Assembly (NCBI GenBank): GCA_013288905.1
Contig: JABDAW010000007.1
Location: 283 to 40,531, forward strand
DNA: 40,249 bases
Direction of reading: 5' to 3'
Origin: Bacteroidota bacterium
Lineage (GTDB): Bacteria > Bacteroidota > Bacteroidia > AKYH767-A > JABDAW01
In this document: one piece after another, positions 1-40,102 of the stretch
Position numbering within the stretch: position 1 is the stretch's first letter
Layout: the number at the start of each line of letters is the position of its first letter
The notes under the pieces: generated by a model
Databases searched by the model: none
Told to the model about the DNA's origin: nothing
Seen by the model: only the letters and a program-made list of their open reading frames with translations
Translations under genes and position numbers: made by a program

Positions 1-111
1 CGCTCGGGCTTTGGTGCCGGGCTTTTGGAATTAGGCAGGATGAACCCGAATGTCGTTGCGCTTTGTGCCGATCTCACAGGCTCTTTGAAGATGGATGCCT
101 TTGAAAAGGAG
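1..111 (+). repeat. Inverted near-duplicate of 39799-39909 (transketolase 5' end)
   Basis: By eye, 107 of 111 bases match the reverse complement of 39799-39909. The four differences include AGGATG against AGAAAG (Met versus Lys) and two synonymous third-position changes. Similarity stops abruptly after the GAG codon at 109-111. It begins at base 1, so it may extend upstream of the window. Confidence 0.93.
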
Positions 112-921
112 TTCCCGAATCGCTTCTTCCAGGTCGGCATCGCAGAGGCAAATATGATGGGCATCGCTGCCGGTTTGACCATCGGCGGCAAGATTCCTTT
201 CACGGGCACGTTCGCGAATTTCTCTACCGGCAGGGTCTATGATCAGATTCGTCAGAGCATCGCTTATTCCGGCAAGAATGTCAAGATTTGCGCTTCTCAT
301 GCCGGGCTTACTTTGGGCGAAGACGGGGCTACTCATCAGATTCTTGAAGACATCGGCTTGATGAAAATGCTGCCCGGAATGATGGTCATCAATCCCTGCG
401 ATTACAACCAGACTAAAGCCGCCACGATTGCCATTGCCGACTATGTGGGTCCGGTATATCTTCGCTTCGGACGACCCTCTGTGCCCATCTTCACCCCCGC
501 CGATCAGCCCTTTGAAATCGGCAAAGCAATCCTCATGAATGAAGGGAATGATGTTACGATATTTGCCACCGGACACCTGGTCTGGAAGGCGTTGATGGCT
601 TGCGAAGAACTGGAGAAAATGGGCATCAATGCCGAGGTAATAAATATCCATACCATTAAACCTTTGGACAATGATGCCGTCCTAAAATCAGCTATGAAAA
701 CAAGATGTATTGTAACAGCAGAAGAGCACCAGATGAATGGTGGATTGGGGGATAGTATCGCGCAGTTGCTAAGCCGCGAATGCCCTACCCCGCTGGAGAT
801 GGTTGCCGTCAATGATTCCTTCGGCGAGAGCGGCACTCCCGATCAACTGATGGTGAAATACGGACTCGATACTCCGGATATTATCAAGGCTGTTCAGAAG
901 GTTATAGCAAGGAAAAATTAA
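1..921 (+). CDS. Transketolase C-terminal subunit, 5'-partial
   Basis: Second half of a split transketolase: the pyrimidine-binding and C-terminal domains, which work with a separate thiamine-diphosphate-binding N-terminal subunit in the non-oxidative pentose phosphate pathway. The frame is open from base 1 (Arg-Ser-Gly-Phe-Gly), so the start lies just outside the window. Comparison with the copy of this 5' end near 39.9 kb suggests only 13 residues are missing, giving about 319 aa, normal for the split form. Visible features are [20 protein letters not shown], the pyrimidine-domain [18 protein letters not shown] with its conserved Glu, and the C-terminal [19 protein letters not shown]. The sigma-factor gene follows after 11 nt. 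The first 111 bases are duplicated in inverted orientation at 39799-39909. Confidence 0.95.
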
Positions 922-2873: not shown

Positions 2874-3191
2874 GCTTTTTGGAACTTGATTCCTTTTTGT
2901 TCAAAACACATCAAGTTTTGAAGGTACTTGATCAAGTTTGATTCAAAACACGTCAAGATTTGAGGGTACTTGATCAACTTTGATTCAAAGTTGACGAACT
3001 TTGATTCAAAATTAGTCAGGTTTTAAGGGCACTTGATCAAGTTTGAATCAGAATGCATCAAGTCTGAACAAAAAGGAATCAACTTCTGAGAAAAAGGATT
3101 CAGGAAAACTTTGAAAGCAATCAACTTTTTCAGGAAACGAGTGAACATTACCACAAAAGGAATTTGTTCCTTTGTAAAAGGAGCCGTGAAC
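2874..3191. repeat. 21-nt array no. 1 (GATCAAG/GATTCAA words)
   Basis: The gap 2729-3254 holds no convincing gene but contains a tandem array whose units are exactly 21 nt. Unit boundaries fall at 2895, 2916, 2937, 2958, 2979, 3000, 3021, 3042, 3063, 3084, 3105 and 3126, with a 24-nt step at 3147 and another unit at 3171. Units typically end in TCAAG, TCAAC or TGAAC and carry palindromic cores such as CTTGATCAAG and TTTGATTCAAA. Units are strongly diverged yet the phase is kept. No reading frame is open through the whole array: the best minus-strand frame is broken by a stop in the 3021-3041 unit. Confidence 0.9.
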
Positions 3192-5305: not shown

Positions 5306-7519
5306 TTATTGTAAAACGATCTTGCTTTGCAAGAAAGCATCCTTATCTTGAAGGATCAACATATAAACCCCTTTTGCGATCATTGACAAATCCATTAGAT
5401 ACTGATTAGCACCCGTCACCGATGAAGTATTTTCATTAATGACGATTCTTCCAAAGACATCTATCAGACGAATGTTGCAAACTCCTTGTTCATTCAGAGA
5501 ATACTCTATCATGATATGGTCGCTTGCAGGATTTGGATAGACATTAAAGTCAGCAAAAACACTTATATTTTTCTCAGCAATTCTAGTCCCACAACCGGAA
5601 GGCCCGACATGTTCCACAGTAATTCCTGAAGTACAACCAGCTACATCTTTTACCCTTAATGGATAGGCTTGGGCAGCTAAAATATTAAAGATATTTGATG
5701 ACTGATAAGTGGATCCTCCATCCTTTGAATAATTATAATATCCCGATCCTCCCGTTGCCATAACAGTTATCTTTCCATTAGCAAGCCCGCAAGATGTTGC
5801 ATCCACAACTGTGGCAGTAAAGGTAATCGGACTATTGGTGGTAATAGGAATCGCAGTGGCATTGCTCAAGCAGCCATTGGCATCTTTAATCTTTACGGTA
5901 TATGTTCCTGCGGTAAGATTACTGAAGAGGGAAGCTCCTTGATAAGTGCTTCCTCCATTGTCGGAATATACTTTGGTGCCTGTACCTCCAGTGGCTGTAA
6001 TAGTAATGCTTCCAAGAGTTGTACTGCATCCTGAAACATTCGAAACATTTGTTGAATAAGTAATGTTAGTAGGCTGTGTAATCGTTATGGAAGTTGATCC
6101 TAAACAGCCATTTGCTCCTGTAACCGTATAGGTATATGTTCCGGCACTAATGTTAGAATAGGTTCCTGTGCCTGTGTATGGTGAAGCCCCGCCAGTTGCG
6201 GAGACCGTAACACTGGTAGTGCCGCCGATACATGGAATTGCATTGCCTTGTGCGGCGGTAACTACTGGCTGGTTGCCATTTGATGTGATATTTATGGTGC
6301 CCACAGAGGTGCATCCTCCTGATGTATTGGTAACAGTAACGCTATATGTACCCGCTACATTGACTGTTCGATTCGGGTTCGTGGAGCCATTATCCCACAG
6401 GTAAATATTGCCTCCGGTGGCGATGAAGTTGATGCTGGTTGTGGCGCAGGTCAAGACATTCGTGCCTGTCTGATTGATAATTATGACCGTTGGATTCACA
6501 CAATGCTCGCCTACTGCATAATTCCCAAAAGAACTTAATCCAATGGCTTGGGTGGAGGTAGGATTTCGTGTGCCATCTGTCGGCAATGACCAGGAAGAAC
6601 CATTCCATTCAGAAACATGGAAATTGGCATAATTGGCTCCACCTATAATGTCTCCAGATACGAAATTAAAGGTCGGATTATAAGAGGTAAAAGAAGTAAC
6701 TCCGTTATTAATAATATTCCAGTACCTGGCAACATCTTTTGAAGGATTCAAGCCCGATGTATTGATGTTAGGATGTTGCCCAGAAATGGTACTAACCGTA
6801 AGGCTTCCCGTGCCATTCGGTGTGCCATTAAAAGCAACAGAAACAGGGGCATATACAGAGGCATCGCCCACCTCAAATGTTTTGGTAATATTCGTGGTGG
6901 CTGGTATGCCTTTTTGCAGATTCCCAAAGACATATTTAGCAGAGCTTGCACCATTCACAATGGCTGAATTACCTAAGGAAAGCGTGTTGTTGCCAGTCGT
7001 GATTTTCCCATTCGTGAAGGTCAAAATTCCATTCAAAGAAGTATTCAAAGAAATCGTTATTCCATTACTATTATTAATCCCTAAATTATTAAAAATCGTA
7101 ATAGCACTGCCACTGATATTTTGCGCTGTTATTCCATTAAAATTCACGGTAGAAGTCCCCGCCGCAAAGGTGCCGTTATTCACCCAATTCCCAGATATAT
7201 TGAAGTTGCCATTCCCAGAAATCGTCCCTGCATTATTTATGCCCGAAGTCAGCGTCATGGTGCCATTATTCGAGATGGTTCCGCTATTATTAATCAGCGA
7301 AGTTCCGCTCACCGAAAGCCCTTGAGACATCGTCGCTGTTGCGCCGTTGTTGGTGATTACCTGTGCTATTGAATTGCTTGTTATTAAACAGATAATACAA
7401 CAAACCATTACGATTTGCTTTATACTATTAAACCTAACTGGAGAAAAACCAGCCAGGATGGGGGCTGCCGAATTCCTATCTATATTCATTGTGATACTAT
7501 TATTGATTCTGTTCTTCAT
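5306..7519 (-). CDS. T9SS-exported surface protein with SprB-type repeats
   Basis: 737-aa protein. The hydrophobic signal lies at about 36-53 (VMVCCIICLITSNSIAQ), so the leader is unusually long and initiation may be at Met11 or later. Residues about 55-190 are rich in NNG/SGT strands typical of beta-helical adhesins. The middle (about 345-645) holds Ig-like SprB modules, with repeated C-G-x-T and ITVTATGGTGxYxYS(x)DGG(S)TYQ motifs followed by AGTYTVKIKDANGC. The C-terminus (about 660-737: FNVYPNPASDHIMIEY ... GVYMLILQDKDAFLQSKIVLQ) is a type A T9SS sorting domain. A cell-surface adhesin or gliding-associated protein is likely. A 42-nt palindromic array lies upstream. Confidence 0.92.
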   Translation of the reverse strand: MKNRINNSITMNIDRNSAAPILAGFSPVRFNSIKQIVMVCCIICLITSNSIAQVITNNGATATMSQGLSVSGTSLINNSGTISNNGTMTLTSGINNAGTISGNGNFNISGNWVNNGTFAAGTSTVNFNGITAQNISGSAITIFNNLGINNSNGITISLNTSLNGILTFTNGKITTGNNTLSLGNSAIVNGASSAKYVFGNLQKGIPATTNITKTFEVGDASVYAPVSVAFNGTPNGTGSLTVSTISGQHPNINTSGLNPSKDVARYWNIINNGVTSFTSYNPTFNFVSGDIIGGANYANFHVSEWNGSSWSLPTDGTRNPTSTQAIGLSSFGNYAVGEHCVNPTVIIINQTGTNVLTCATTSINFIATGGNIYLWDNGSTNPNRTVNVAGTYSVTVTNTSGGCTSVGTINITSNGNQPVVTAAQGNAIPCIGGTTSVTVSATGGASPYTGTGTYSNISAGTYTYTVTGANGCLGSTSITITQPTNITYSTNVSNVSGCSTTLGSITITATGGTGTKVYSDNGGSTYQGASLFSNLTAGTYTVKIKDANGCLSNATAIPITTNSPITFTATVVDATSCGLANGKITVMATGGSGYYNYSKDGGSTYQSSNIFNILAAQAYPLRVKDVAGCTSGITVEHVGPSGCGTRIAEKNISVFADFNVYPNPASDHIMIEYSLNEQGVCNIRLIDVFGRIVINENTSSVTGANQYLMDLSMIAKGVYMLILQDKDAFLQSKIVLQ

Positions 7520-7610
7520 TATTTAATTGAATGTTGTGAAATTTCCTGATTCATGATTGTTATATTCATTATATCAATTATCATTGTTTGCGCTGTTATT
7601 AATTTCTTCA

Positions 7611-8411
7611 TTATATTTCCAAGTATTGTAAGTTCTGTAATTCGGGATTATGCTGAATGGAATGATATTCTATTCCCAGGAATACCGGAATGCAGTATAT
7701 CAAGTGGTTTAACGTCCTCCCGACTTCGCGACCTCTATAAACTATATGGTTTAGTGTCCTCCCGAAGTCGCGACCGTGATAAACCAGATGGTTTAGTGTC
7801 CTCCCGACTTCGCGACCATGATAAACCACATGGTTTAATATCCTCCCGAAGTCGCGACCGTGATAAACCACATGGCTTACTTGCCTCCCGAAGTCGCGAC
7901 CGTGATAAACCATTTGTTTTAGTGCCCTCCCGACTTCGCAATCGAAGTAAAACAAGTGTTTTAGTGTCCTCCCGACTTCGGGAACGTAATAAAACAAGTG
8001 TTTTAGTTGCCTCCCGAAGTCGGGAACGTTATAAAACACTTGTTTTAGTTGCCTCCCGAAGTCGGGAGCGTTATAAAACAAGTGTTTTAGTGTCCTCCCG
8101 AAGTCGGGAACGTTATAAAACACTTGTTTTATCTCAATTGCGAAGTCGGGAGGCAAGTAAAACATTCCATTTATAGTATTCCCTAACTTCTGAAAGTTAT
8201 AAATCATTTCATTTAAGCCATTCCTTATGTAATGATTCCATGCAAATCCTTCATTTGACCCGTTCCTGAATTCGGGATAATGATATTGAATTTTATTTGG
8301 GTGAATATCTGAATCCCTCTTTCCTGAAACTTTCATGTTTACTATAATAACGGCATCGGCAGCCTCTTTAATGCACTCTTTTAAATGATTTATGACTTTT
8401 GAATTCTTCAT
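7611..8411 (-). CDS. Possible protein made of 14-residue repeats (array ORF)
   Basis: A 266-aa frame beginning at ATG 8411 after an AT-rich leader like those of neighbouring genes. The first 35 or so residues (MKNSKVINHLKECIKEAADA...) are non-repetitive; the rest is a 14-residue repeat with consensus VFYNVPDFGRTLKH or VYHGRDFGRTLNH, translated from the 42-nt array. No signal peptide, membrane helix or known domain is visible. A period that is a multiple of three keeps any frame lacking a stop open, and the plus strand is also open over most of the array, so the frame alone is weak proof of translation. The unique N-terminus and matching start context are the arguments for it. Confidence 0.35.
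   Translation of the reverse strand: MKNSKVINHLKECIKEAADAVIIVNMKVSGKRDSDIHPNKIQYHYPEFRNGSNEGFAWNHYIRNGLNEMIYNFQKLGNTINGMFYLPPDFAIEIKQVFYNVPDFGRTLKHLFYNAPDFGRQLKQVFYNVPDFGRQLKHLFYYVPEVGRTLKHLFYFDCEVGRALKQMVYHGRDFGRQVSHVVYHGRDFGRILNHVVYHGREVGRTLNHLVYHGRDFGRTLNHIVYRGREVGRTLNHLIYCIPVFLGIEYHSIQHNPELQNLQYLEI
7632..8303. repeat. 42-nt array no. 2 of alternating palindromes
   Basis: The segment CCTCCCGA recurs at 7716, 7758, 7800, 7842, 7884, 7926, 7968, 8010, 8052 and 8094, always 42 nt apart. Recognisable but decayed units extend in the same phase on both sides, for about 16 units. Each unit holds two near-palindromes 21 nt apart, one GC-rich (TCCCGA-AG/CT-TCGGGA) and one AT-rich (AAAACA-AG/CT-TGTTTT, or AAACCA-NN-TGGTTT). 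Both centres are 2 nt and appear freely as AG or CT. Long frames are open on both strands. Confidence 0.95.
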
Positions 8412-8460: not shown

Positions 8461-11400
8461 TTAATGAGTTTGGGTATAAGAAACCGTTGCACCGGAAAGA
8501 ACCGTAACTGCAGAACCAGAGGTACTGCTTGCGAAACGAGCTATCACAGTACCAGTGCCAGAGGCAATCAAGACCCCTTCGATATTACAAATATTACCAG
8601 AGGCAGCACTTGTAGAATTAGAAGCTGTTTGTCCAAATGCCCCTGCTGAAGTTAATGAAGTAGTGGCAGCCGCTTTGGTATAAGTTATCATATAATTAAG
8701 TTGAGAAGCTGTTGCACCACCATTACCGTTAAGCGTCCATTTACTACCTACACTTGTTGCAGAAGTAGTGTAAGGAATCGTGAATCTGAAATAATAGGTA
8801 TTGCCTGCAGTAACCGGGAAGGACAAGCCAGTAATGTCGGTAACGGTGTTCAATGTTGTGGCTTGATTGGCAGTAATAGTTGTGCGAAGAGGGGCTGTAA
8901 TGCCAGCTACAGCAGATTGAACAAATGCAGTTGAGGCAGCTTGCGTGGTGTTTGTACCATTAGCAGCAGTAGGGACAGCGGGCGTTCCTGTAAAGGTGGG
9001 AGATGCAAGATTTGCCTTTGTGCTGATTGCCGTTGATACAAAAGCTGTAGTAGCAATGTTAGTGGAATTATCGCCGGAAGCAGGAGTAGGTGAAGTAGGA
9101 GTCCCTGTCAAGACTGGCGAGGCTAATGGTGCATAAGCAGTTGAAGAATAAGCATTCGTTCCAAGCGTGCCGCCTGCTCCGATATTTAAGATAGAACCAT
9201 CTGTGCCAGATAATGTCAAAGTATTATTGGAAGTGAATGTTTTGCCGCTTCCAATGGTGATTGTAGAGGCAGAGGAGGGTGTCGTGATGTTCACATTATT
9301 TATACTTGTAGCAGTAGCAGCTCCGAGGATAGGTGTCGTGAAGGTCTTGGTACCAGTGAAGGTTTGAGCTTGTTCAAGATTGGCTACTGTATTTCTTGCA
9401 GGAGTTGAGTTGGTATAAAAAATATTCGTGCCATCGAATTCAACGGAGCCTACTACCGGTGCAGTTAGGTTTGTTCCTGGAGTAAGCTTTAATGGTGCTA
9501 CCGAAACAGTACCAGCAGGCATTGTAACTGTTCCTGTGAATGTCGGAGAAGCTATGTTTGCTTTTAAGTTATTTGCAGTTGAAACAACGCCAACAGCCGC
9601 AGTAACAAAGGCATCCGTAGCAACGGCAGTAGTATTATCTCCAGGTGTTTGGGTAACTGCAATGGTTCCTGTTGGAAGCGTAGGAGCACCTGTGAATATT
9701 GGTGAATTTAATGGCGCATAAGATGTTGATGTATAAGCATTGCTGCCCAGCGTGCCACCATTACCTATGTTTAATGTGGAAGCATCAGTACCAGCAAGAG
9801 TCATGGAATTATTCACAGCAAGAGTCTTGGAAGTGGTGCCGCCGGCTACACTGAATCCTGTGGTATTAGCAGTAAGTGATATACCATTAATAGTAGTAGC
9901 TGTAGCGGCTCCAAGCACAGGCGTGGTGAAGGTTTTGATGCCTGTGAATGTTTGTGTTTGTTCTAAATTTGCTATTGTATTTCTTGATGGAGTTGAGTTG
10001 GCATAATACATATTAGTTCCATCAAATTCGACAGCACCTGAAACAGGAGAAGTAAGGTTATTACCCTGAACGAATTTTAAAGGAGCCGCAGAGGTCGAAC
10101 CTGTAGGCAGAATCACGGTTCCGGTGAATGTCGGAGAGGCAATATTTGCTTTCAGGCTATTCCCTGTAGCAACTGCAACAGTAACAAAAGCAGTCGTTGC
10201 AATATCAGTGGAATGATCACCAGGCGATTGGGTAACAGCAATTGTTCCTGAAGGAAGTGTAGGTGTTCCAGTGAATGTAGGGGAAGCTAAGTTTGCTTTT
10301 AAAACCAAAGAATCTTGTTGAATAATTGAAACTGGTTTATTTGCATCAGATGTATTATTGACATTACCCAAACCAACAGCAGAACTGTTTAATGTCTGCC
10401 ATGTTTCATCGCCTCTCCAGTATTGGGAAGTAGTGCCTTGGGCTATGGTTGGCTGTGTGGAATTTATCTGACTTTGAAGATTTTCAAGAGCTGTAAGAAC
10501 GCTGTTTCCAGAAGATAATGGAGTATTTGAACCTACTGAATACCCTGTAAGTGGAGCAGCTACTGCCCTTGCATCTGTGTAATATAAATTAGTGCCTTCA
10601 TTGATATTAGTGGTGGTTAAATTTATAATACCTTGTTGACCATTAACAGAAGTAACATCATTAGATGAAGGTGCTATTTGATAATAGCTTCCATTGTGAA
10701 TTACACTTTCCCCAACAGTAAAGTTTAGCGAACCTGACCCTAAGTTTTGCGTGCCAGCAATAGAAACAATGTATAAATATCCATTAGAACCAGTGCCATC
10801 AGAAATGGCAGGGGTATTGGTGCTTGCATCCCAGGTTCCTTTATAAACCAAGGCACCTGTTGGCAGTTGAGCCGCAGGAACTTTACCTGTATTATCTAAT
10901 GTAGCAACGCCACCACTAACCCCTTCTTGGGAAATTGCAATGTAAGTAGCATCTGTATAAGCCTTTGTTGTCAAATGTGTTGAAAGAGTAGGCGTACCAC
11001 CAATTACAGGGTTGGAAAAAGTCTTTGTACCTGCTATTGTCTGAGAAGTGCTAAGATCAACAAAGTTTTGAGTGGAAGAACCTGTTCCACCTCTTGAAAC
11101 AGGTAATGTTCCGGTCCATCCAAGCGTTAGAGAAGTATTCTGAAGTAATGCTGTGGAAGGAGAGCCGCCAAGAGTAAGAGTGACATTATTATCATTAATC
11201 GATGTAAGTGCTCCTGCTGTGGTATAAGAAGGTGCCGTAGAACTACCGGTAGCATTACCCAAGTAGGTATTTGCCCCAGCATTAGTAAGGGAATAAGACA
11301 ACGCTGGAGTAGTGCCTGGAGTAGCTACTGATGTTGTGAATAATGGAGAAAGATTACCAGAACTAAAGGAGGTAACCGTACCATTATTTACAGTATTTAA

Positions 11401-14400
11401 TGTTGAACCGGAATAGGACAATCCGGAGCCTAAAGTAATTTCGGATACAGCAGTACCAGATGCACCGCTTCCCAATAATTTATTACCTGTCATTGTTTGC
11501 ATTTTGCTGTATGTTACAGCATTGTTTGAAATAGTAGAAGCTAATGAACCTGCTGTGGTTGTTACATCGCCTGTCATTGCTGGGAATCTTCCGGCAGCTA
11601 ATATTCCAGTTGCATTAGAACCTGATAAATCCACAGCACCTGCTGTTATTGCTTGTCCACTTAATGAAAGATAATTTTGACCAGATAAAGTTACATCACC
11701 AGAGTTAGAACCGCTAAGGTTAGAGCCGGTAACAGTGCCTGTAGCAGTTACAGAGGAAGGTGTTATTGCTCCTAAGGTCAATGATATTGCCGGGGTAGAA
11801 GTATTGTTAGAAACCGTTCCTGAAACACCATTCGCGGTAGTAACAGAGACCGAAGTAACGGTACCATTATTTACGGTGTTCAGAGTTGAACCAGAATAAG
11901 ATAGTCCACTGCCTAAGGTAATTTCAGAGACCGCTGTTCCGGTACCACTTCCAAGTAATTTGTTGGTTGTCATTGCCTGCATTTTTGCGTATGTAACAGC
12001 ATTAGCAGAGATCGTAGATGTCAAAGAACCAGCAGAAGTAGTAACATCACCTGCCAATGCCGGGAACCTTGCCGCAGCTAATGTCCCGGTAACATTTGCA
12101 CCTGATAAATTTACAGCATTTGCAGTAATTGCTTGCCCTGTTATAGAAAGATAATTTTGTCCTGATAATGTAACATCACCCGTATTGGATCCAGAAACCG
12201 ATGCAGTCCCTGTAACTGCCAACGTTGGAGTAGAAGATCCTGAAAGAGTAACACCATTAACCGTTGAAGGCGTAATTGCTCCCAATGTTAAACTGATGGC
12301 AGGAGTTGTTGTAGCATTTGATACTGTTCCTGTAACTCCATTAGCAGATGTAACAGAAACAGATGTAACTGTGCCACCTAAGCCAGAAGCAGATAGTGTT
12401 CCGCCGCTTAATGCAAGACCAGTGCCAAGAGTAATGGATTGAACATTTCCTTGGCTTCCAGTACTGTTTCCAAGTAATGTCGTGGCAGGTATTTGTTGAA
12501 TATCTCCAAGGGTAACAGCATTTGGAGAAATAGTAGTATTAAAATCATTCCCTGTCGTAGTAACATCACCAGTATATGCTGGAATTATCCAATTCCATTG
12601 CGAACCATCATCATAATATAATAGTCCTGCATCAATAGAAAGATAAGCCCGATTTGCAGTTCCTTCATTAGGTAAATTGGCATCATTACCTGCACTAACT
12701 GTGTTTAAACCACCATTATTAATTACTGCATTGGTAATGCCAAGCATGCTTTTAACATTAGCAATTGATAGGTCAGAAGCATTAGCTGTACTACCTGTAT
12801 TATTACCCTTAATTGTATTTGCAGCCATTTGTGCAGCCTTTGCATTAGTTACTACATTAGTTGCAATGGTTGTTGCATTCCCAACAGAGGTAACATCACC
12901 AGTCATGTTAGCATTTGTTGTAACAGTTGCAGCATTACCGGTAGTATTTTGATTTAATGTTGGGAATGTACAGTTTACCAAATTCCCTGATGCAGGAGTC
13001 CCAAGTACAGGTGAAATAAATGTTGGAGAAGTTGAAAGTACTATATTTCCTGAACCTGTGGTACCTGTAGCAGAACTTAAATAATTAAGTTGCGTTCCTG
13101 TTGAAGTCACAGATGTTAATCCAAGAGTGAACGGTGTAGGAATAGTAACTGTTCCTGTAAATGTTGGAGAGGCTAATGGTGCATAGGTTGTGCTTGTATA
13201 AGCATTACTTCCAAGTGTTCCACCTGTTCCTATATTCAATGTAGAACCATCTGTTCCTGAAATGGTTAAAGAATTATTTATCGTAAGAGTCTTTGAGGTT
13301 GTTCCACCTGAAATAGAAAAACCTATGGCATTGGCTGTATGTGTAAGTCCATTATATGAAGTAGCAGTAGCAACCCCTAAATTTGGAGTTATTAATGTAG
13401 GGGAAGTATTCATTACAAAAGTAGAACCAGTTCCAGTTTGAGATGCAATGGAAGTAGTATTTCCAGAACTTGTTATAGGACCTGTTAAATTGGCATTTGT
13501 TGTAACAGTTGCAGCATTACCAGTTGTACTTTGATTCAAAGTTGGGAAATCAGCAGCAACTGCAATAGATGGAACTCCTGTTCCAGTAGTGTTTTTTAAG
13601 ATACCGGTGCCTAAACCAGCTAATGATGTATTATTTATCTTACTAACAGTAACTGCACCAGCATTTGTAATTGATGCGTCACCAGTCATTTGAACATCTG
13701 TTGGTATATTACTGCTATTACCGACTAGTATATGAGTATTTGTTAAAGAGGAAACACTACCAGTTGCGCCTGTAGCACCGGTAGCTCCTGTTACACCGTT
13801 TGTTCCATTAGTTCCGGCTGTACCTGTTGCGCCATTGGCTCCCGTTGCGCCGTTTGTTCCATTTGTTCCAGCAATACCCGTTGCACCAGTGGCTCCTGTT
13901 GTCCCGTTTGTTCCATTGGTTCCTGCTGAACCTGTTGCGCCAGTGGCTCCTATTGCCCCGTTTGTTCCATTGGTTCCATTGGTTCCATTGGTTCCAGCTG
14001 TACCTGTTGCGCCAGTGGCTCCTGTTGCGCCATTTGTTCCAGCAACACCCGTTGCACCAGTGGTTCCCGTAGCACCGTTTGTTCCTGCTGTACCTGTTGC
14101 TCCAGTGGCTCCTGTTGCACCAGTCGAGCCTATTAATCCCTGAATACCTTGTATCCCCTGATCTCCTGTTGCACCAGTCGCTCCAACTATTCCTTGAATA
14201 CCTTGTGAGCCTGTTGCTCCTGTTACTCCTTGAATTCCCTGTATACCTTGTATTCCCTGATCACCAGTTGCACCAGTAGCTCCAACAATTCCTTGAATTC
14301 CTTGTGATCCTGTGGCTCCTGTTACTCCTTGAATACCCTGAATACCTTGTATCCCCTGATCTCCTGTTGCACCAGTAGCTCCAACAATTCCTTGAATACC

Positions 14401-17244
14401 TTGTGAACCTGTAGCTCCTGTTACCCCTTGAATACCCTGAATACCTTGTATCCCCTGATCTCCTATTTCACCTGTAGCTCCAACTATACCTTGAATACCT
14501 TGTGAGCCTGTTGCTCCTGTTACTCCTTGAATGCCCTGAATACCTTGTATTCCCTGATCTCCTGTCGCACCAGTTGCTCCAACTATGCCTTGAATACCTT
14601 GTGAACCTGTGGCTCCTGTTGCCCCTTGAATTCCCTGATCTCCTGTTGCACCAGTCACTCCAACAATTCCTTGAATACCTTGTGAACCTGTAGCTCCCGT
14701 TACTCCCTGAATTCCCTGAATGCCTTGTATTCCCTGATCCCCAGTTGCGCCTGTGGCTCCAACTATTCCTTGAATACCTTGTGCTCCGGTAGCTCCTGTT
14801 ACTCCTTGAATTCCTTGAATACCTTGAATACCTTGTATCCCCTGATCTCCTATTTCACCTGTAGCTCCAACTATTCCTTGAACACCTTGTGAACCTGTAG
14901 CTCCCGTCATACCTTGAATTCCCTGATTACCCGTAGCCCCTGCTATTCCCTGTATCCCTTGCACTCCGGTAGCTCCTGTTACTCCTTGAATTCCCTGAAT
15001 GCCTTGTATCCCTTGATCTCCCGTTGTACCAGTCGCTCCAACTATCCCTTGAATACCTTGTGAACCTGTAGCTCCTGTCACTCCTTGAATTCCCTGAATA
15101 CCTTGTATGCCCTGATCTCCTGTTGCACCTGTAGCTCCTACAATACCTTGAATACCTTGTGAACCTGTGCCTCCTGTTACTCCTTGAATTCCCTGAATAC
15201 CTTGTGAACCTGTGCCTCCTGTTACTCCTTGAATTCCCTGAATACCTTGTATCCCCTGATCTCCTGTTGCACCAGTCGCTCCAACAATTCCTTGAATACC
15301 TTGTGAACCTGTGGCTCCTGTTACCCCTTGAATACCCTGAATACCTTGTATCCCCTGATCTCCTGTTGCACCAGTCGCTCCAACTATACCTTGAATTCCC
15401 TGAATACCTTGTATACCCTGATCTCCTGTTGCACCAGTAGCTCCAACTATACCTTGAATACCTTGTGAACCTGTAGCTCCTGTCACTCCTTGAATTCCCT
15501 GAATACCTTGTATCCCCTGATCACCGGTCGCACCAGTCGCTCCAACAATTCCTTGAATTCCTTGTGATCCAGTGGCACCTGTTACACCTTGAATACCTTG
15601 GATTCCCTGATCACCTGTTGAGCCAGTCTCTCCTGCTATTCCTTGTGATCCTGTAGCTCCTGTTACTCCTTGAATTCCCTGAATACCTTGTATCCCCTGA
15701 TCTCCAGTTGCACCAGTCGCTCCAACAATTCCTTGAATACCTTGTGAACCTGTGGCTCCTGTTACTCCTTGAATTCCTTGAATACCTTGGATTCCCTGAT
15801 CCCCTGTTGCACCAGTAGCCCCTGCTATTCCTTGAATACCTTGTGAACCTGTGGCTCCTGTCACTCCTTGAATTCCCTGAATACCTTGTATACCCTGATC
15901 TCCTGTTGCACCAGTAGCTCCAACTATTCCTTGAATGCCTTGAGAACCTGTAGCTCCTGTTACCCCTTGAATTCCCTGATCTCCTGTTGCACCAGTCGCT
16001 CCAACAATTCCTTGAATGCCTTGTGAACCTGTAGCTCCTGTTACACCTTGAATCCCCTGAATACCTTGTATACCCTGATCTCCTGTTGCACCAGTAGCCC
16101 CTGCTATTCCTTGAATACCCTGTGAACCTGTGGTTCCTGTTACTCCTTGAATTCCCTGAATACCTTGTATCCCCTGATCTCCTATTGCACCAGTGGCTCC
16201 AACAATTCCCTGAATACCTTGTGATCCTGTTGCTCCTGTTACTCCTTGAATTCCCTGAATACCTTGTATCCCCTGATCTCCAGTTGCACCTGTAGCTCCT
16301 ACAATACCTTGAATACCTTGTGAACCTGTGGCACCTGTTACTCCTTGAATTCCTTGAATCCCTTGTATTCCCTGATCACCTGTTGCACCTGTCGCTCCAA
16401 CTATTCCTTGAATACCTTGTGAACCTGTAGCTCCTGTTACCCCTTGAATACCCTGAATTCCTTGTATGCCCTGATCTCCTGTTGCACCAGTTGCTCCTAC
16501 TATTCCTTGAATGCCTTGTGAACCTGTGGCACCCGTTACTCCTTGAATTCCCTGAATGCCTTGTATCCCTTGATCTCCCGTTGCACCAGTCGCTCCAACT
16601 ATCCCTTGAATACCTTGTGAACCTGTTGCTCCAGTTACCCCCTGAATTCCCTGAATACCTTGTGCTCCAGTAGCTCCTGTTATTCCTTGATTACCTTGAA
16701 TACCTTGTATCCCCTGAATTCCTTGTATCCCCTGTAATCCCGTAGCTCCCGTCATACCTTGAATTCCCTGATTACCCGTAGCCCCTGCTATTCCCTGTAT
16801 CCCTTGCACTCCGGTAGCTCCTGTTACCCCTTGAATTCCCTGGATACCTTGTATACCAGTAACTCCCTGAATACCTTGAATCCCCTGCAAACCTGTTGCA
16901 CCGGTAGCACCCGTTGCTCCCTGAATGCCTTGAGGTCCGATGGCGACTATCCAAGCCGTCCCATTAAAATAATTAAAGACATTTGTGGTGGTATTATAAA
17001 TAAATAAACCGGTCGCGGGCAATGCGATGGAATCCCTCTGAACAGTGGTCATCCGTGGTATCAGCATTCCTTTTGAGGTGGATCGAACTTCTAAAATGGA
17101 CGATGAATCCGGTGTAAAAGTTGTCGCTCCGATGCCCATACTTTGGGCAAATAAATTTTGATTGAATGCAATAAACAATAAGATTGCTACTATTACATTC
17201 TTACAATTCCATTTCTGATTTTTTAAGTTGTTCATTTTGTTCAT
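8461..17244 (-). CDS. Giant collagen-like / phage-tail-fibre-like surface protein
   Basis: About 2,927 aa from the ATG at 17244; upstream in-frame starts (TTG 17331, ATG 17292) would put about 29 or 16 residues before the signal peptide, so 17244 is preferred. After the signal ([18 protein letters not shown]) comes a head of about 70 residues ([28 protein letters not shown]), common at the start of Bacteroidota fibre proteins. About 1,060 residues of uninterrupted Gly-X-Y triplets follow, mostly GIQ, GAT, GVT and GDQ in 33-residue blocks. The remaining ~1,765 residues are low-complexity beta repeats, including modules of the type [13 protein letters not shown] ... TTxATTAFVxxAV, characteristic of phage tail fibres. 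No T9SS tail is visible at the C-terminus ([10 protein letters not shown]). Probably a secreted fibrous adhesin. Confidence 0.93.
13757..16931 (-). repeat. Collagen-triplet coding repeats (99-nt blocks)
   Basis: Within the giant gene, about 3.2 kb encodes Gly-X-Y triplets. The dominant block is 11 triplets (99 nt), repeated more than 20 times with small block deletions or duplications that always keep the triplet phase. Near the 3' side (13757-14130) the blocks change to GTNGTNGATGATG-type triplets. Assembly collapse or expansion is possible here. Confidence 0.92.
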
Positions 17245-17371
17245 ATTGATAGTTTGATAATACGATTTAAAATCTATTTTTACGTTAACCATTTTTTTAA
17301 GTTGTTGTTTTATATTAATATAATATTTCAAAGTTCGATGGGAAGTTTGCCAGAATAATTTAGAAGGGGTT

Positions 17372-18055: not shown

Positions 18056-18275
18056 TTTTTATTTATTGAATTCCGCCAAAAATGGAATGTCATAAAAGGA
18101 AAATTTAAAGAAGTACCACTACAGATAACCAATTCTTCTCCCATCATGCTTTTATTACATTCCTGAAAAAAGGGAATGTGATAAAAGGAAAATTTAAAGA
18201 AGTGCAAGACTGATTACCAGTTTTATCATCATCATCCTTTTATTGCATTCCCCAAAAAGGGAATGTCATAAAAGG
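18056..18275. repeat. Three tandem copies of the CATC/GATG-type hairpin element
   Basis: Copies at about 18056-18099, 18144-18187 and 18233-18275. Each has a left arm ending CTTTTAT, an inner arm such as GCATTCC, an A-rich loop, the inner return GGAATGT and a right arm ATAAAAGG. The first two are followed by the same flank (AAATTTAAAGAAGT), so a unit of about 89 nt was duplicated. The third copy has the loop CCCCAAAAAGGG seen in the separate elements at 34323, 35825 and 35950. Confidence 0.85.
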
Positions 18276-18299
18276 AAAAAGTAATTACGAATGCTGGAT

Positions 18300-18362
18300 T
18301 ATAAATAATGAATGAAGAACATTTTATAATTTATAATTCACCATTTATAATTCATCATTCCT
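18300..18362 (-). repeat. Short-word element abutting a stop codon
   Basis: Directly after the stop of the fibronectin-like gene, the minus strand repeats words of the form ATGAATTATAAATG, then inverted words (TTCATTCATT), enough for an AT-rich hairpin. The same word family follows the nrdA stop at 21068-21104. It may end transcription. Confidence 0.6.
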
Positions 18363-19071: not shown

Positions 19072-19536
19072 CTAAACGAATACATATGGTATAGAAAAAG
19101 GATAGAACATTCCACCAATTTCTCCAGAAGATTTTGAACAAAGGAAATAGATTTCAGAAACCCTCCCAGACGATAAACCAATCTCTGGAGAGATTCCTTG
19201 ACTTTCCCTTGAAAATCTGGAATTTTCCCTGGAAGAATCAGAATTTTCCCTGGAAAAACTGGAACTTTCCCTGGAAGAATCGGAATTTTCCCTGGAAAAA
19301 CTGGGATTTTCCCGGGAAAAATCAGAATTTTCCCTGGAAGAATTGAAATTTTCCCTGTAAAAACTGGAATTTTCCCTAGGAAATCCGGAATTTTCCAGGG
19401 AAAGTAATTTGGAAGCTCCTGACAATGAAACAAACTCTGGACAGATTCCTCCAAAAGCTGAAATGAATAACCCACCTCCCATTCCTTCCGAAGAAATTGC
19501 TGCACCTTTTGCCTGAATCATTAGAGAAAATTTCAT
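19072..19536 (-). CDS. Possible array ORF with 7-residue repeats
   Basis: A 154-aa frame: about 46 Gly/Ser-rich residues (MKFSLMIQAKGAAISSEGMG...), then heptapeptides of the type NSSFSRE / NSDSSRE translated from the 21-nt array, then a unique tail. A second minus-strand frame (19065-19505) is open through the same array and would encode heptads of the type KIPVFPG. Which, if either, is translated cannot be told from the sequence. The unique N-terminus favours the 154-aa frame slightly. Confidence 0.3.
   Translation of the reverse strand: MKFSLMIQAKGAAISSEGMGGGLFISAFGGICPEFVSLSGASKLLSLENSGFPRENSSFYRENFNSSRENSDFSRENPSFSRENSDSSRESSSFSRENSDSSRENSRFSRESQGISPEIGLSSGRVSEIYFLCSKSSGEIGGMFYPFSIPYVFV
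19196..19411. repeat. 21-nt array no. 3 (TTTTCCCTGGAAAA palindromes)
   Basis: The words TTTTCCC or CTTTCCC start at 19202, 19223, 19244, 19265, 19286, 19307, 19328, 19349, 19370 and 19391: ten units exactly 21 nt apart. Each core is a near-palindrome TTTTCC-NN-GGAAAA followed by a 7-nt variable spacer (ACTGGAA, ATCGGAA, ATCAGAA, ATTGAAA). The phase is perfect although most units differ. Confidence 0.95.
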
Positions 19537-26614: not shown

Positions 26615-27102
26615 GTGTAATTAATAAAATCTAAGCTCCCAAAAGCACAAAATCCCCCTTGAATAAGATACCCCTTGCCAAAATCCACTCCCATTACCCT
26701 CCTGCCAAGTAGAATTCTATTAATCAAAAAAGCTATGCTCTTGTTTATGCTCACTATGGTCTTGTTTATTCGAGGGTATGACTTGTTTATCCTTACTAAG
26801 GACTTGTTTATGCTTACTGATGCCTTGTTTTTTCGAGGGTATGGCTTATTTATGCTTACCGAGGTCTTGTTTATGACTACTAAGACCTTGTTTTTGGAGG
26901 GGTATGGCTTATTTATGCTTACTAAGGTCTTGTTTATGACTACTAAGGACTTGTTTATGCTTACTGAGGTCTTGCCAATGGTCTTTTTAATGATACCGAA
27001 ACCCGCTCCCTGTATAGCTCCAAGCCCTAAAAGTGTGTTTTTGAAGAAAATCACACCACCCCCTCCAATTCGCATCCTAATTTCCTCAAATCGTGTTCTC
27101 AT
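26599..27102 (-). CDS. Possible array ORF with 7-residue repeats
   Basis: 167-aa frame whose first 45 residues are unique and Gly/hydrophobic-rich (GGGGVIFFKNTLLGLGAIQG). Heptads of the type VSINKSL / VVINKTL / SINKPYP follow, translated from the 21-nt array, then a unique tail that ends 16 nt inside the RES gene start. The overlap with a downstream start and the unique ends make translation more plausible than for the other arrays, but the plus strand is also open over most of it. No known domain. Confidence 0.4.
   Translation of the reverse strand: MRTRFEEIRMRIGGGGVIFFKNTLLGLGAIQGAGFGIIKKTIGKTSVSINKSLVVINKTLVSINKPYPSKNKVLVVINKTSVSINKPYPRKNKASVSINKSLVRINKSYPRINKTIVSINKSIAFLINRILLGRRVMGVDFGKGYLIQGGFCAFGSLDFINYTCLIY
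26740..26991. repeat. 21-nt array no. 4 (CTTGTTTATG words)
   Basis: Twelve units exactly 21 nt apart begin at 26740, 26761, 26782, 26803, 26824, 26845, 26866, 26887, 26908, 26929, 26950 and 26971. Each has a conserved front (CTTGTTTATG) and a variable back. A GGGTATG back recurs every third unit (26761, 26824, 26887), a 63-nt higher-order repeat. No indel breaks the phase. Confidence 0.97.
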
Positions 27103-28114: not shown

Positions 28115-28460
28115 ATTTTTATATCTTTATTTTGTATTATTTTTTGTTTAATTCTCTGTTAAGTCTTCCCATCTTTTTCGGGGTTGCAAAGATGCCTCAT
28201 TTTTACTTCCTGCACAATCATTTTTTATAAACATTTCCCAAAAGTTTTTAACACCCATTCACTTTTCTTGTTGATAAATTATCTTCTTTTTGACATTGTA
28301 AAATTAACTCCTGATTCAATCCCCCCGAAACTAAACTGTAAATAAATTATAACAGCCATCTGTTAGAAACTTTTCCTTCCGAAAAACTTGCTTTTGGAAA
28401 GGAATTTGATAGGGGGTGAAAAGGTATAGGGGAATAGGGTATAAAGGTATATGGCATAAG
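28115..28460. other. nrdB leader and intergenic gap
   Basis: Holds the nrdB promoter region and otherwise AT-rich DNA with no reading frame I would support. Direct GGTATA-type words begin near its left-to-right end. Confidence 0.6.
28187..28217 (-). promoter_or_regulatory. nrdB promoter with overlapping inverted repeat
   Basis: On the minus strand TTG (28215-28217), a 20-nt spacer, then CATCTTTG (28187-28194), near the Bacteroidota consensus. The minus-7 box overlaps one arm of a perfect 7-bp inverted repeat (CATCTTT at 28170-28176, AAAGATG at 28188-28194), a plausible operator. Expected 5' leader of about 65 nt. Confidence 0.6.
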
Positions 28461-28525
28461 GAATAAAAGGTATAGGGTATAAAGGTATATGTTTCCTTAT
28501 GCCTTTATACCCTATGCCTTTATTC
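28461..28525. repeat. Word-repeat hairpin across the DUF3109 stop codon
   Basis: Arms of about 28 nt (left from 28461, right to 28525) based on GGTATA, GGGTATAAA and AATAAAGG words, mostly complementary with some G-T pairs, loop about 10 nt. Further direct copies of GGTATA lie to 28425. The DUF3109 stop (28512-28514) is inside the right arm, so the last seven residues of that protein (GNKGIKA) come from the repeat. It can also act as the gene's terminator. Confidence 0.85.
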
Positions 28526-30365: not shown

Positions 30366-30430
30366 TATTATAAAATTTTAATTCAAAATATTCCCAATAA
30401 AAACTTCGCATCTGCCAAAAAAGATCAAAA

Positions 30431-30556
30431 ATAGCGTAACCATCCCAAAGCTTTGCGTAACATTCCTCAAAGATAGCGTAACATTGTTGATAAATAGCGT
30501 AACAAGGTTAAAGAATAGAGTAACATTTATCGAAAATAGCGTAACAAAGTTGAAGA
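30431..30556. repeat. 21-nt array no. 5 (ATAGCGTAAC words)
   Basis: Six units exactly 21 nt apart, GCGTAAC or GAGTAAC at 30434, 30455, 30476, 30497, 30518 and 30539. The first 10 nt (ATAGCGTAAC) are conserved and the next 11 vary. A minus-strand frame of 62 codons (30378-30566) is open through it and begins immediately after the TAA of the upstream gene, encoding heptads of the type NVTLFFN; I do not count it as a proven gene. Confidence 0.93.
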
Positions 30557-30566
30557 AAACAGTCAT

Positions 30567-35469: not shown

Positions 35470-35700
35470 TGAAAAGAACTTTTCTGTCCGTTCCTTTCCA
35501 ACGCATCGAACCAAAAACTTATACCCAAGCCATTCCAATAGAAAGAAACAGGGTAAAAAGTTATACCCAAGTCATCCCAATGGAAAGAGGCGAGGTAAAA
35601 AGTTCTACCCAAGCAATTGCCATCCATAGCAGAGAGCCAAAAAGTTACAACCGGAGCTTTTTTAGGGATTTGTTTTTCCTGAAAAGTTGTACCCAAAAGA
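35470..35700. repeat. 42-nt array no. 6 (AAAAAGTTATACCC words)
   Basis: The GTT/CTT of AAAAAGTTATACCC-type words falls at 35476, 35518, 35560, 35602, 35644 and 35686, always 42 nt apart. Middle units share CCAAGxCATxCCAATxGAAAG. A minus-strand frame of 123 codons (35379-35750) runs through it with 14-residue repeats of the type FYPVSFYWNGLGIS; I do not count it as a proven gene, though its ends are unique sequence. Confidence 0.92.
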
Positions 35701-35824
35701 CTATATTCTATAGATGAAAAGAATTTTGAAAAAAGTATAAAAAGATTCACTTCGCAAAATTAGTAATAAAATAAATAGCAGCGATGTAATAGAAAGTGGT
35801 ATGTTGGGAAATCATTTTTTCTTT

Positions 35825-35872
35825 CATCCTTTTATGCTACCGACCTTTTTGGGGCGGTGCAATAAAAGGATG
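35825..35872. repeat. CATC/GATG hairpin element (copy 5)
   Basis: 48 nt. Outer stem CATCCTTTTAT with its complement ATAAAAGGATG (11 bp), inner ACC/GGT stem, loop CCCCAAAAAGG read on the minus strand. The outer stem has the same sequence as copy 3 at 18233. Confidence 0.88.
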
Positions 35873-35882
35873 ATTGTTTTAA

Positions 35883-35922
35883 GAGCCTCACCCCTTGCCC
35901 CTCTCCCAAGGAGAGGGGGACG
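35883..35922. repeat. CCCCTCTCC hairpin element
   Basis: Perfect 9-bp arms CCCCTCTCC / GGAGAGGGG with a 3-nt loop (35897-35917), preceded by CCTCACCCC. Related to the sequence at 19945-20005. Confidence 0.8.
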
Positions 35923-35949
35923 TTGCCGTTACGAAGTGTTTATTTCTTT

Positions 35950-35995
35950 CATCGTAGTGTGATAGCGACTTTTTAGGAGCTGCAACACGACGATG
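35950..35995. repeat. CATC/GATG hairpin element (copy 6)
   Basis: 46 nt. Outer stem CATCGTAGTGT / ACACGACGATG (one mismatch), inner AGC/GCT stem, loop CTAAAAAG. Reverse-oriented relative of copy 4, with changed outer-stem bases. Confidence 0.85.
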
Positions 35996-36016
35996 ATGAA
36001 GATAATTAGGAATTAA

Positions 36017-36057
36017 AAATTAGGAATTAGGAAAAGTGTACACCTAATTCCTAATTT
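36017..36057. repeat. AATTAGG hairpin overlapping the nth stop
   Basis: Perfect 15-bp arms of AATTAGG words (36017-36031 and 36043-36057) around an 11-nt loop. The nth stop codon (36056-36058) lies at the edge of the right arm. Confidence 0.85.
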
Positions 36058-36700
36058 ATAATTTATAATTTTTTTCGTAGTACTTGCAGATGCCGGTAAT
36101 GCCGCATTCAGGGCACTTTGGCTTGCGGGCAAGGCATACATAACGACCGTGCAGGATAAGCCAATGATGGGCAATAGGGATTTTATCTTTGGGTAGGTGA
36201 TGGACCAACTGGTCTTCGGCAGCTCGCGGGGTCTTGGCATTTATGGTGAGACCAATGCGCGCCGCTACTCGGAAAACATGCGTATCCACAGGCATACTGG
36301 CTTGATTGAAGACCACCGAGGCAATGACATTGGCGGTCTTTCTGCCTACGCCGGGGAGCTTTTGTAATTCGTCCACATCGGCGGGAACAACGCCTCCGAA
36401 ATCATGGACGAGCATCTTCGCCATGCCTACCAAATGCTTGGCTTTATTGTTTGGATAACTGATAGATTTGATGTATTGAAAAACTTCTTCCTGGGTGCTC
36501 GCTGCCATGACTTCGGCAGTGGGGAAAGCCTTGAATAACGCGGGCGTCGTCATGTTCACACGTTTGTCGGTGCATTGCGCAGAGAGGATGACGGAGACTA
36601 ATAATTGATAGGGGTTATCATAGATTAATTCGGTCTCGGCAATGGGGCGGTGCTCTGTGAAATAGGTGATGAATTTTTGATAGCGTTCTTCTCTTTTCAT
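36056..36700 (-). CDS. nth: Endonuclease III, DNA glycosylase/AP lyase
   Basis: 214 aa. Base-excision repair of oxidised pyrimidines. Helix-hairpin-helix LPGVGRKTANVIASVVF with catalytic Lys121, PVDTHVFRVAARIGL with Asp139, and the C-terminal iron-sulfur cysteines at 189, 196, 199 and 205 (C-x6-C-x2-C-x5-C) are all present, matching the E. coli enzyme almost residue for residue. The last residues (NYKL) overlap an AT-rich word repeat. It follows folB and an outer-membrane-protein gene in the same orientation with small gaps and may share their transcript. Confidence 0.97.
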   Translation of the reverse strand: MKREERYQKFITYFTEHRPIAETELIYDNPYQLLVSVILSAQCTDKRVNMTTPALFKAFPTAEVMAASTQEEVFQYIKSISYPNNKAKHLVGMAKMLVHDFGGVVPADVDELQKLPGVGRKTANVIASVVFNQASMPVDTHVFRVAARIGLTINAKTPRAAEDQLVHHLPKDKIPIAHHWLILHGRYVCLARKPKCPECGITGICKYYEKNYKL

Positions 36701-39203: not shown

Positions 39204-39710
39204 ATGGAAAATCAAGACCACCTGGCATATTTCAAAAGCCCGATTGGGGTCATTGAACTAACTGGTTCTATGGATGGAATTTCGTCTTTGATATTTATTG
39301 ATGAGGAGAAGACTTCGGAGCTTGTTGACTTGCCCGTTTTGATTGAGGGAATGGCTCAAATCGAGGAGTATTTTTTGGGTAAGAGGAAACATTTTGATTT
39401 GAAATTGGATATTCATGGTACCGAATTTCAGAGGAAGGTCTGGAATAAATTAATGGAGATTCCATATAGCCAGACTATCTCTTATCTTCAATTAGCGAAG
39501 CGAATAGGCAATGTCAAAGCGATCCGTGCGGTAGGTACTGCTAATGGCAGGAACCCGCTATCCATCATCATTCCATGCCATAGGGTGATTGGGAGTAATG
39601 GAGATTTGACGGGATATGGAGGTGGTTTGTGGAGGAAGGAATGGTTGCTGAAACATGAAAGTCAATCAGGAACTATGAATTACGAATTGGAATTCCCGCC
39701 TAATTCTTGA
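39204..39710 (+). CDS. ogt: Methylated-DNA--protein-cysteine S-methyltransferase
   Basis: 168 aa. Repairs O6-alkylguanine by transfer of the alkyl group to its own Cys125 (PCHRVIG), a suicide reaction. The winged-helix segment (GTEFQRKVWNKLMEIPYSQT), RAVGTANGRNPLSIIIPCHR with the Arg finger, and GYGGGLWRKEWLLKHE are typical. The usual protein ends near KHE; about 16 extra residues (ending NYELEFPPNS) are encoded by an AATTACGAATTGG-type word repeat. The stop overlaps the opposite-strand chimera by 11 nt. Confidence 0.95.
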   Translation: MENQDHLAYFKSPIGVIELTGSMDGISSLIFIDEEKTSELVDLPVLIEGMAQIEEYFLGKRKHFDLKLDIHGTEFQRKVWNKLMEIPYSQTISYLQLAKRIGNVKAIRAVGTANGRNPLSIIIPCHRVIGSNGDLTGYGGGLWRKEWLLKHESQSGTMNYELEFPPNS

Positions 39711-39948
39711 TTATCACGAGCTTTCCTTTGGCTACAATTCCGGTATTATTAATTACTTCCCAAAGGTAGATTCCATTGCTCAATTGAAGGCTAATAGTCT
39801 CCTTCTCAAAGGCATCCATCTTCAAAGAGCCTGTGAGATCGGCACAAAGCGCGACGACATTCGGGTTCTTTCTGCCTAATTCCAAAAGCCCGGCACCAAA
39901 GCCCGAGCGGGTATCTTTCTTTTCTGTAAAGGTGAATTTATTAGCCAT
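39700..39948 (-). pseudogene. Chimera of a transketolase N-terminus and a T9SS sorting tail
   Basis: 82-aa open frame from the ATG at 39948. Residues 1-50 (MANKFTFTEKK ... MDAFEKE) are the start of a transketolase C-terminal-subunit gene; residues 51-82 (TISLQLSNGIYLWEVINN ... GKLVIIKN) are the last part of a T9SS type A sorting domain. The join is in frame after a GAG codon. Such a protein lacks both a signal peptide and enzyme function, so it is probably a recombination relic. It keeps the transketolase promoter (39969-39976), so it may be transcribed. The matching full-length gene begins at the start of the window. A misassembly is possible. Confidence 0.8.
39799..39909 (-). repeat. Inverted near-duplicate of 1-111
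   Basis: Part of the chimera that matches the window's first 111 bases in reverse complement, with four substitutions and no indels. Confidence 0.93.
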
Positions 39949-39968
39949 AATATTAAATAATGTTGGGG

Positions 39969-39976
39969 CAAACTTA
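39969..39976 (-). promoter_or_regulatory. Minus-7 box of the transketolase fragment
   Basis: TAAGTTTG on the minus strand (exact TAnnTTTG), 20 nt upstream of ATG 39948. Confidence 0.6.
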
Positions 39977-40000
39977 TAAATCGGAGAGGAAGTTTTGAAG

Positions 40001-40102
40001 GAATTAAGAACAAAAGAACATTGAACATTTGAACAATCGAAGTGTGGGAAGTCGTATGCACTTCGTTTGTTCAAATGTTCAATGTTCTTTTGTTCTTAAT
40101 TC
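40001..40102. repeat. 44-bp-arm hairpin of GAACATT words, abutting a stop codon
   Basis: Arms 40001-40044 and 40059-40102 match over 43 of 44 positions, loop 14 nt. Inside each arm the word GAACA recurs (GAACAAAAGAACATTGAACA). The right arm ends exactly at the stop codon of the partial gene at 40103, so it is likely that gene's terminator. Confidence 0.95.

Follow-up and report, generated by a model that had tools for sequence, protein, structure and literature searches.

Intergenic arrays with an exact 21-bp pitch and freely varying sequence in one genus of Bacteroidota: a possible structural element of the chromosome

Here we describe a 40,249-nt stretch of DNA from a Bacteroidota bacterium (the window), together with the tandem arrays that lie between its genes. 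The window is contig C7 of an assembly that, like the others used here, is metagenomic; it comprises 2.6 Mb in 209 contigs and is 59% complete. The ribonucleotide reductase small subunit of this genome is at most about 81% identical to named records among the matches listed. The features that concern us are the following.

2881..3124, no strand: 21/42-nt array of the ACTTGATCAAGTTTGATTCAA type, intergenic (TRF and lag-21 scan)
5306..7519, minus strand: gene to the left of array 2, for a protein carrying a C-terminal sorting domain for type IX secretion (Pfam PF18962, E 3e-12)
7636..7717, no strand: decayed left edge of array 2, where the 42-nt register is visible in the sequence and dyad scores drop to 2-4 of 6
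7718..8221, no strand: core of array 2, twelve 42-nt units (gapless alignment, pair counts, dyad scan)
8222..8303, no strand: decayed right edge of array 2, where dyads 8228 and 8270 keep the 21-bp register (dyad scan)
8461..17331, minus strand: gene on the other side of array 2, for a 2956-aa collagen-like repeat protein (ORF and translation)
18320-18353 and 28419-28489 (also L006:3544-3991): tandem repeats of a 7/14/15/23-nt class
19203..19403, no strand: 21-nt array of TTTTCC-CT-GGAAAA and a 7-nt spacer, the final unit having the flipped centre AG
26739..26974, no strand: 21-nt array adjoining nrdB, with unrelated 21-nt arrays at the corresponding place of a congener (G002)
30425..30557, no strand: 21-nt array, with an unrelated array at the corresponding place of a second congener (G001)
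35513..35614, no strand: 42-nt array without a clear dyad

Both genes flanking array 2 lie on the minus strand, and the collagen-like one, directly upstream of the array and on that same strand, carries long GATGATG-QGIQG repeats. The tandem repeats with units of 7, 14, 15 and 23 nt (GTGAATA and GGTATAA, for example) are common in the genome and form a second class, separate from the arrays treated here. Dispersed repeats occur as well: one of about 60 nt at 18211-18280 has many copies in G002, at 82-98% identity, and few in G001, while the interval 35814-36070 holds intergenic repeats common to several places in both (77-98% identity). At the left end of the window, the N-terminal part of a transketolase-like protein (25-921, plus strand) recurs at 39700-40074 on the minus strand, fused to an unrelated C-terminus, and is either a duplicated fragment or an effect of the assembly.

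Array 2 is built of units that each consist of a GC-rich 6-2-6 dyad, a 7-nt spacer, an AT-rich 6-2-6 dyad and another 7-nt spacer. An earlier note on this DNA had described a 42-nt array with alternating palindromes 21 nt apart, and such an array is indeed present: the twelve core units align with zero gaps and a mean column identity of 80%, and a dyad scan finds 20 successive centres (7724-8123) at exact 21-bp steps, 19 of which have at least five of six arm pairs, against a background of 0.6% per position in the window. Self-identity is 0.79 at lag 42 and only 0.22 at lag 21, so the halves of a unit have unrelated sequences; the 21-bp spacing of the dyads nevertheless holds from one palindrome to the other. 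The length of the array had been put at about 16 units; we count about ten clear units and two eroded ones, and reach 16 only by including the strongly decayed flanks. The eroded dyads, at 8207, 8228 and 8270, are in register.

The palindromes themselves are less regular than their spacing. The motif TCCCGA-NN-TCGGGA, formerly ascribed to every unit, is perfect in only 4 of the 12 and imperfect in the other 8; columns 3 and 12 are unpaired in 8 units, and the right arm reads TCGCGA in units 1-5 and TCGCAA in unit 6. The reported switching of the two-nucleotide centre between AG and CT is borne out for the GC-rich palindromes, in 11 of 11 core units (7 AG, 4 CT) and with zero single-step intermediates, but in the AT-rich palindromes it is confined to units 6-10, the other centres being TA, GA, CA, CA, TT, TT and TT. 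Units 6 and 11 carry palindromes (TCCCGACTTCGCAA and TTGCGAAGTCGGGA, respectively) that are exact reverse complements of each other. Whole units, however, have not been inverted in place as had been proposed: the 7-nt spacers never flip, which limits inversion to the palindromes at most. That both arms often change together was overstated, since only 1 of the 12 pairs shows a two-sided change (A-T 5, C-G 4, T-A 1). The AT-rich arms AAACCA/TGGTTT and AAAACA/TGTTTT each occupy a block of their own, and one type gives way to the other inside the unit at 7886-7927, so that few historical events stand behind such counts. The covariation score of the paired arms, 0.097, exceeds that of slid partners (at most 0.020), although 17 of 500 shuffles match it. 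Maintenance of the arm symmetry by selection or by a copying mechanism stays plausible, with paired arm change much weaker than claimed.

What the earlier note chiefly left out is that the 21-bp pitch is found throughout the genome, whatever the sequence. Hundreds of arrays exist besides array 2, which is the clearest case of a wider architecture in which a dyad, of any sequence, recurs each 21 bp. We compared parts of the window genome with parts of its congeners G001 and G002 (97-98% complete), calling genes with a simple codon-usage script, which affects the gap counts and distances given here. In 815 kb of the window genome there are 120 regions with a lag of 21, against 17 or fewer at any other lag of 15-31, and among the 196 arrays of the three genomes that have at least six copies and a period of 17-26 nt, the period is exactly 21 in 190. 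Their density per 10 kb is 1.04 in the window genome, 1.04 in G001 and 1.88 in G002, which extrapolates from the sampled stretches to about 400-700 arrays per genome, some ten-fold above the Bacillus cases of Subirana and Messeguer. Array length has its mode at 9-13 units. The arrays are intergenic, and an array occupies about 45% of the gaps that measure 300 bp or more, whether the neighbouring genes are co-directional, convergent or divergent; a single array is present in 157 of 166 occupied gaps and two in the remaining 9. Along the chromosome of the window genome they are spaced significantly more evenly than random gap occupancy would give, and in G002 even spacing was not detectable. Register shifts number 50 in 39 kb, with none in 148 of 180 arrays. 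The indel:substitution ratio of dispersed repeats predicts several hundred, a comparison that is rough because repeat finders favour gapless arrays.

In 167 kb of a genome of the same family (G003), and in 1.4 Mb around nrdB in 80 other Bacteroidota, no such arrays were found, just scattered matches that are weak or have short units; as far as sampled, the trait is therefore genus-specific. No matches to plasmids, phages or viral contigs were found either, and an origin in mobile elements was rejected, since most arrays have neither flanks nor contents in common with others and only a minority do. Among the G002 contigs C2-C42 (L096-L135), 21 of 40 sampled contig starts lie in a 21-nt array or within 150 nt of one, where about 4 are expected; arrays therefore break (short-read) assemblies and are probably under-represented in them.

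Twenty-one nucleotides make seven codons, and the arrays might accordingly be parts of heptad-repeat proteins. Open frames run through many arrays (351 against 321 expected) and stop triplets are depleted, at 0.044 per base compared with 0.060 in other intergenic DNA. However, variation within arrays has no codon-position pattern (p<=0.05 in 4 of 199 arrays), the array ORFs of the window have no Pfam match above cut-off, and long arrays of 18 or 24 nt, which a coding origin would allow equally, are nearly absent. We find coding repeats barely credible, and the tests contradict them, as they do the two further readings that follow, in RNA and in sequence-specific binding.

An element acting at the level of RNA, whether a guide, small-RNA or TIGR/CRISPR-like array or a hairpin-forming untranslated region, would fit the folding of the arrays, which are more self-complementary than their column-permuted versions; array 2 folds at -169 and -186 kcal/mol, against -105 when its columns are permuted. 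Yet the two strands show this excess to the same degree (mean z -1.95 and -1.85), and the position of the arrays is independent of gene orientation. Rfam returned only long-hairpin miRNA and other models, all below their cut-offs. TIGR-Tas was rejected, as the Nop (Tas) domain PF01798 is absent from the genome (59% complete) and from 12 relatives, including G001 and G002 (97-98%). The CRISPR pattern of identical repeats and unrelated spacers is not that of array 2, which repeats all 42 columns, spacers included. A role as RNA is very unlikely on these grounds.

Dyads are over-represented without being universal. A perfect 7-pair dyad occurs in 14 of 166 units, where dinucleotide-preserving shuffles give 1.3%, and the mean dyad excess over such shuffles is z = 0.55 +/- 0.08; a clear dyad of about 14 bp is present in a sizeable minority of arrays and missing in about two thirds. 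Arrays with a 42-nt period and dissimilar halves, of which there are 38, have a clear dyad in 18 cases, and among these the position exactly +21 gives the best second dyad in 11 arrays and the runner-up in 4. Part of this is due to residual homology, as some halves are still up to 45% identical; in the 11 arrays with a lag-21 identity below 0.30, the +21 dyad comes first in 7 and second in 2. The spacers of 21-nt arrays are only slightly symmetric (0.32 against 0.26), so the dyads are not the by-product of a globally reflected array, and symmetrisation by a global fold-back was rejected. Nor are the units more bent than their composition predicts (two wedge models give a mean z of -0.12 and -0.11 relative to a null that preserves dinucleotides). 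Curvature of the unit as a selected trait was rejected when an apparent excess over column permutation (z 0.31) vanished under that null, but any 21-bp repeat still adds its bends in phase.

The sequences of the arrays mostly differ from locus to locus, although some small families exist, and they also differ between species at one and the same place. Where array 2 stands in the window genome, G002 has about eight copies of an unrelated unit, GATTCCATGCTGGGAGCCGTA, and at the place of the 19203..19403 array (about 19201) G001 has the unrelated 21-nt units AATCTTGTACAAGATT and AATCTCTGCAGAGATT. Twelve syntenic gaps of at least 250 bp hold arrays in both species in 5 cases, in neither in 5 and in the relative only in 2 (Fisher p=0.028). 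Of nine corresponding array pairs, 8 are no more alike than random pairs, which share 10.0 of 21 positions, and 1 is homologous (16/21). Within the window genome, three local paralogous places on contig C6 (L019:2010-2647, 7571-7942 and 10001-10460) have flanks that are 88-93% identical and 21-nt arrays that are unrelated. In the first of these, one unit type grades into another in register, which looks like a replacement in progress.

This turnover bears directly on a reading suggested by the earlier note, in which a dimeric DNA-binding protein occupies every palindrome; the arrangement would be like that of iterons and plasmid centromeres. Dyads of about 14 bp set on one helical face, with the fixed geometry of the 20 centres of array 2 and a dyad kept in both halves of its 42-nt unit, are what such an operator array would have. 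On the other hand, hundreds of mostly unrelated arrays would demand equally many specificities, array 2 is unique in its own genome and has a counterpart of other sequence in G002, so that a shared recognition sequence is lacking, and most arrays are without a clear dyad. Recognition of a specific sequence is therefore improbable.

The inversions seen in array 2 recur elsewhere. The sampled arrays offer 26 two-nucleotide centres for comparison; flipped units number 8 and other double changes 7, whereas point mutation would give a ratio of 1:8 (binomial p ~7e-5, treating units as unrelated). Among 139 asymmetric arrays, 24 contain units in reverse complement (at least 16/21), while the complement control yields 1 and the reverse control 8. 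These counts support a process by which short palindromes are inverted in place. Covariation of the arms in general is not clearly above slid controls: across all dyad arrays 69 cells are compensated where 22.8 are expected, and the slid controls are likewise above expectation (118 against 48). In hairpins, a single interstrand template switch is known to produce both inversion of the loop and compensatory change of the arms (PMC8794818), and the centres of our arrays resemble this in inverting without intermediates. By analogy with those rRNA hairpins, short inverted template switching would yield the pattern of flips and inverted units; at the palindromes it may flip the two-nucleotide centre and could restore arm pairing. 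Template switching differs in being a mutational mechanism reported for rRNA genes, one that covers the flips but not the 21-bp pitch.

Mutation might also supply the arrays themselves. The main rival to a function is a satellite in which a process of synthesis or recombination peculiar to this lineage amplifies any seed by a 21-nt step, the product being kept where selection tolerates it, between genes, while its sequence drifts. The lack of sequence conservation between and within species, the indifference to gene orientation, the growth in L019 of a new unit type in register from an older one, the restriction to one genus and the over-abundance of even two-copy 21-nt repeats (169, against about 25-70 at neighbouring periods) all speak for it. 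Against this, such a satellite requires an as yet undescribed machine with a fixed 21-nt step, and it fails to predict the length mode, the one array per gap, the agreement of places across species and the second dyads at exactly +21 in dissimilar halves. A reverse transcriptase was rejected as the generator, RVT_1 being absent from the array-dense G002 (98% complete) and not found in the window genome (59% complete). We consider a functionless satellite quite possible, but less than probable.

The spacing of the arrays, and often their place, persists while their letters are freely replaced, so that the cell may need the rhythm of this DNA and not its text. A step of 21 bp spans two helical turns and so brings each feature back onto one face of the DNA, and a pitch that is kept while sequence is free suggests that geometry is read. 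The reading that we prefer, with a confidence that stops a little short of even, is that the arrays are intergenic non-coding satellites which conserve an exact 21-bp pitch, and in a minority a dyad, with their sequence free, and which have a structural role in the chromosome. A fuller version is possible though doubtful: that hundreds of arrays, one per large gap, form a chromosomal structural element set by helical pitch and dyad placement, its place kept while its sequence is replaced, and read by a putative protein that senses two-turn periodicity or the shape of the dyad. In the preferred reading the arrays would form tracks along which one DNA feature keeps coming back on the same side of the helix, and a putative protein reader would recognise phase or dyad shape, not sequence; alternatively, they may simply act as coherently bent or flexible segments. 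Unequal exchange in register could multiply and replace the units and also generate the higher-order units of 42 and 63 nt.

The data lean to a function in the register, the length mode, the single array per gap, the agreement of places and the dyads at +21. Against a structural role, the rarity of indels and the constant pitch could also stem from the mechanism of amplification; further, the bend is no higher than dinucleotide composition predicts, about two thirds of the arrays have no clear dyad, and even spacing is not seen in G002. If the spacing is selected, this is non-coding DNA that works by geometry alone, invisible to conservation measures based on alignment, and it points to a putative reader of chromosome structure; if it is mutational, a previously undescribed process of 21-nt amplification operates in one genus. 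The density of arrays in the genus opens their origin, maintenance and function to statistical testing.

A search of the literature for 21-bp arrays in Bacteroidetes found nothing, but several known systems invite comparison. Plasmid iterons and centromere arrays consist of direct repeats spaced about two turns apart, in some cases together with inverted repeats, and share one sequence and one binding protein. Here, by contrast, the arrays differ in sequence, and in the window none of them adjoins a replication or partition gene. The tandem repeats of Borgs (PMC9879509) are, like our arrays, fast-evolving and locus-specific, and are nearly absent from related host genomes; they differ in being perfect copies of many lengths, about half of them in genes, whereas our arrays have diverged units of a constant 21 nt and lie between genes. 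Closest are the bacterial satellites of constant size, reported in 2020-2021 without explanation (Subirana and Messeguer 2021, PMC8161180). These tandem repeats keep their size (20-21 or 52 nt) and vary in sequence; 20-21 nt was noted as two helical turns, and nucleoid proteins or small RNAs were proposed as possibilities. Tested against that description, our arrays have the constant size of 20-21 nt, fall into unrelated families and are mostly non-coding; in both cases size is constant at about two turns, sequences are unrelated within and between species and taxonomic distribution is patchy, and the published satellites include 40-41-nt relatives. The word 'palindrome' appears nowhere in that text (PMC8161180). 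Those satellites have roughly 12-80 repeats per genome, where we find one array per 5-10 kb, at exactly 21, with dyads at the two-turn pitch, sequence replaced at the same places, flipped centres and inverted units. What is new relative to the known satellites is thus the density, the dyad architecture, the constraint on register, the exchange of sequence while the place stays constant, and the signature of inversion.
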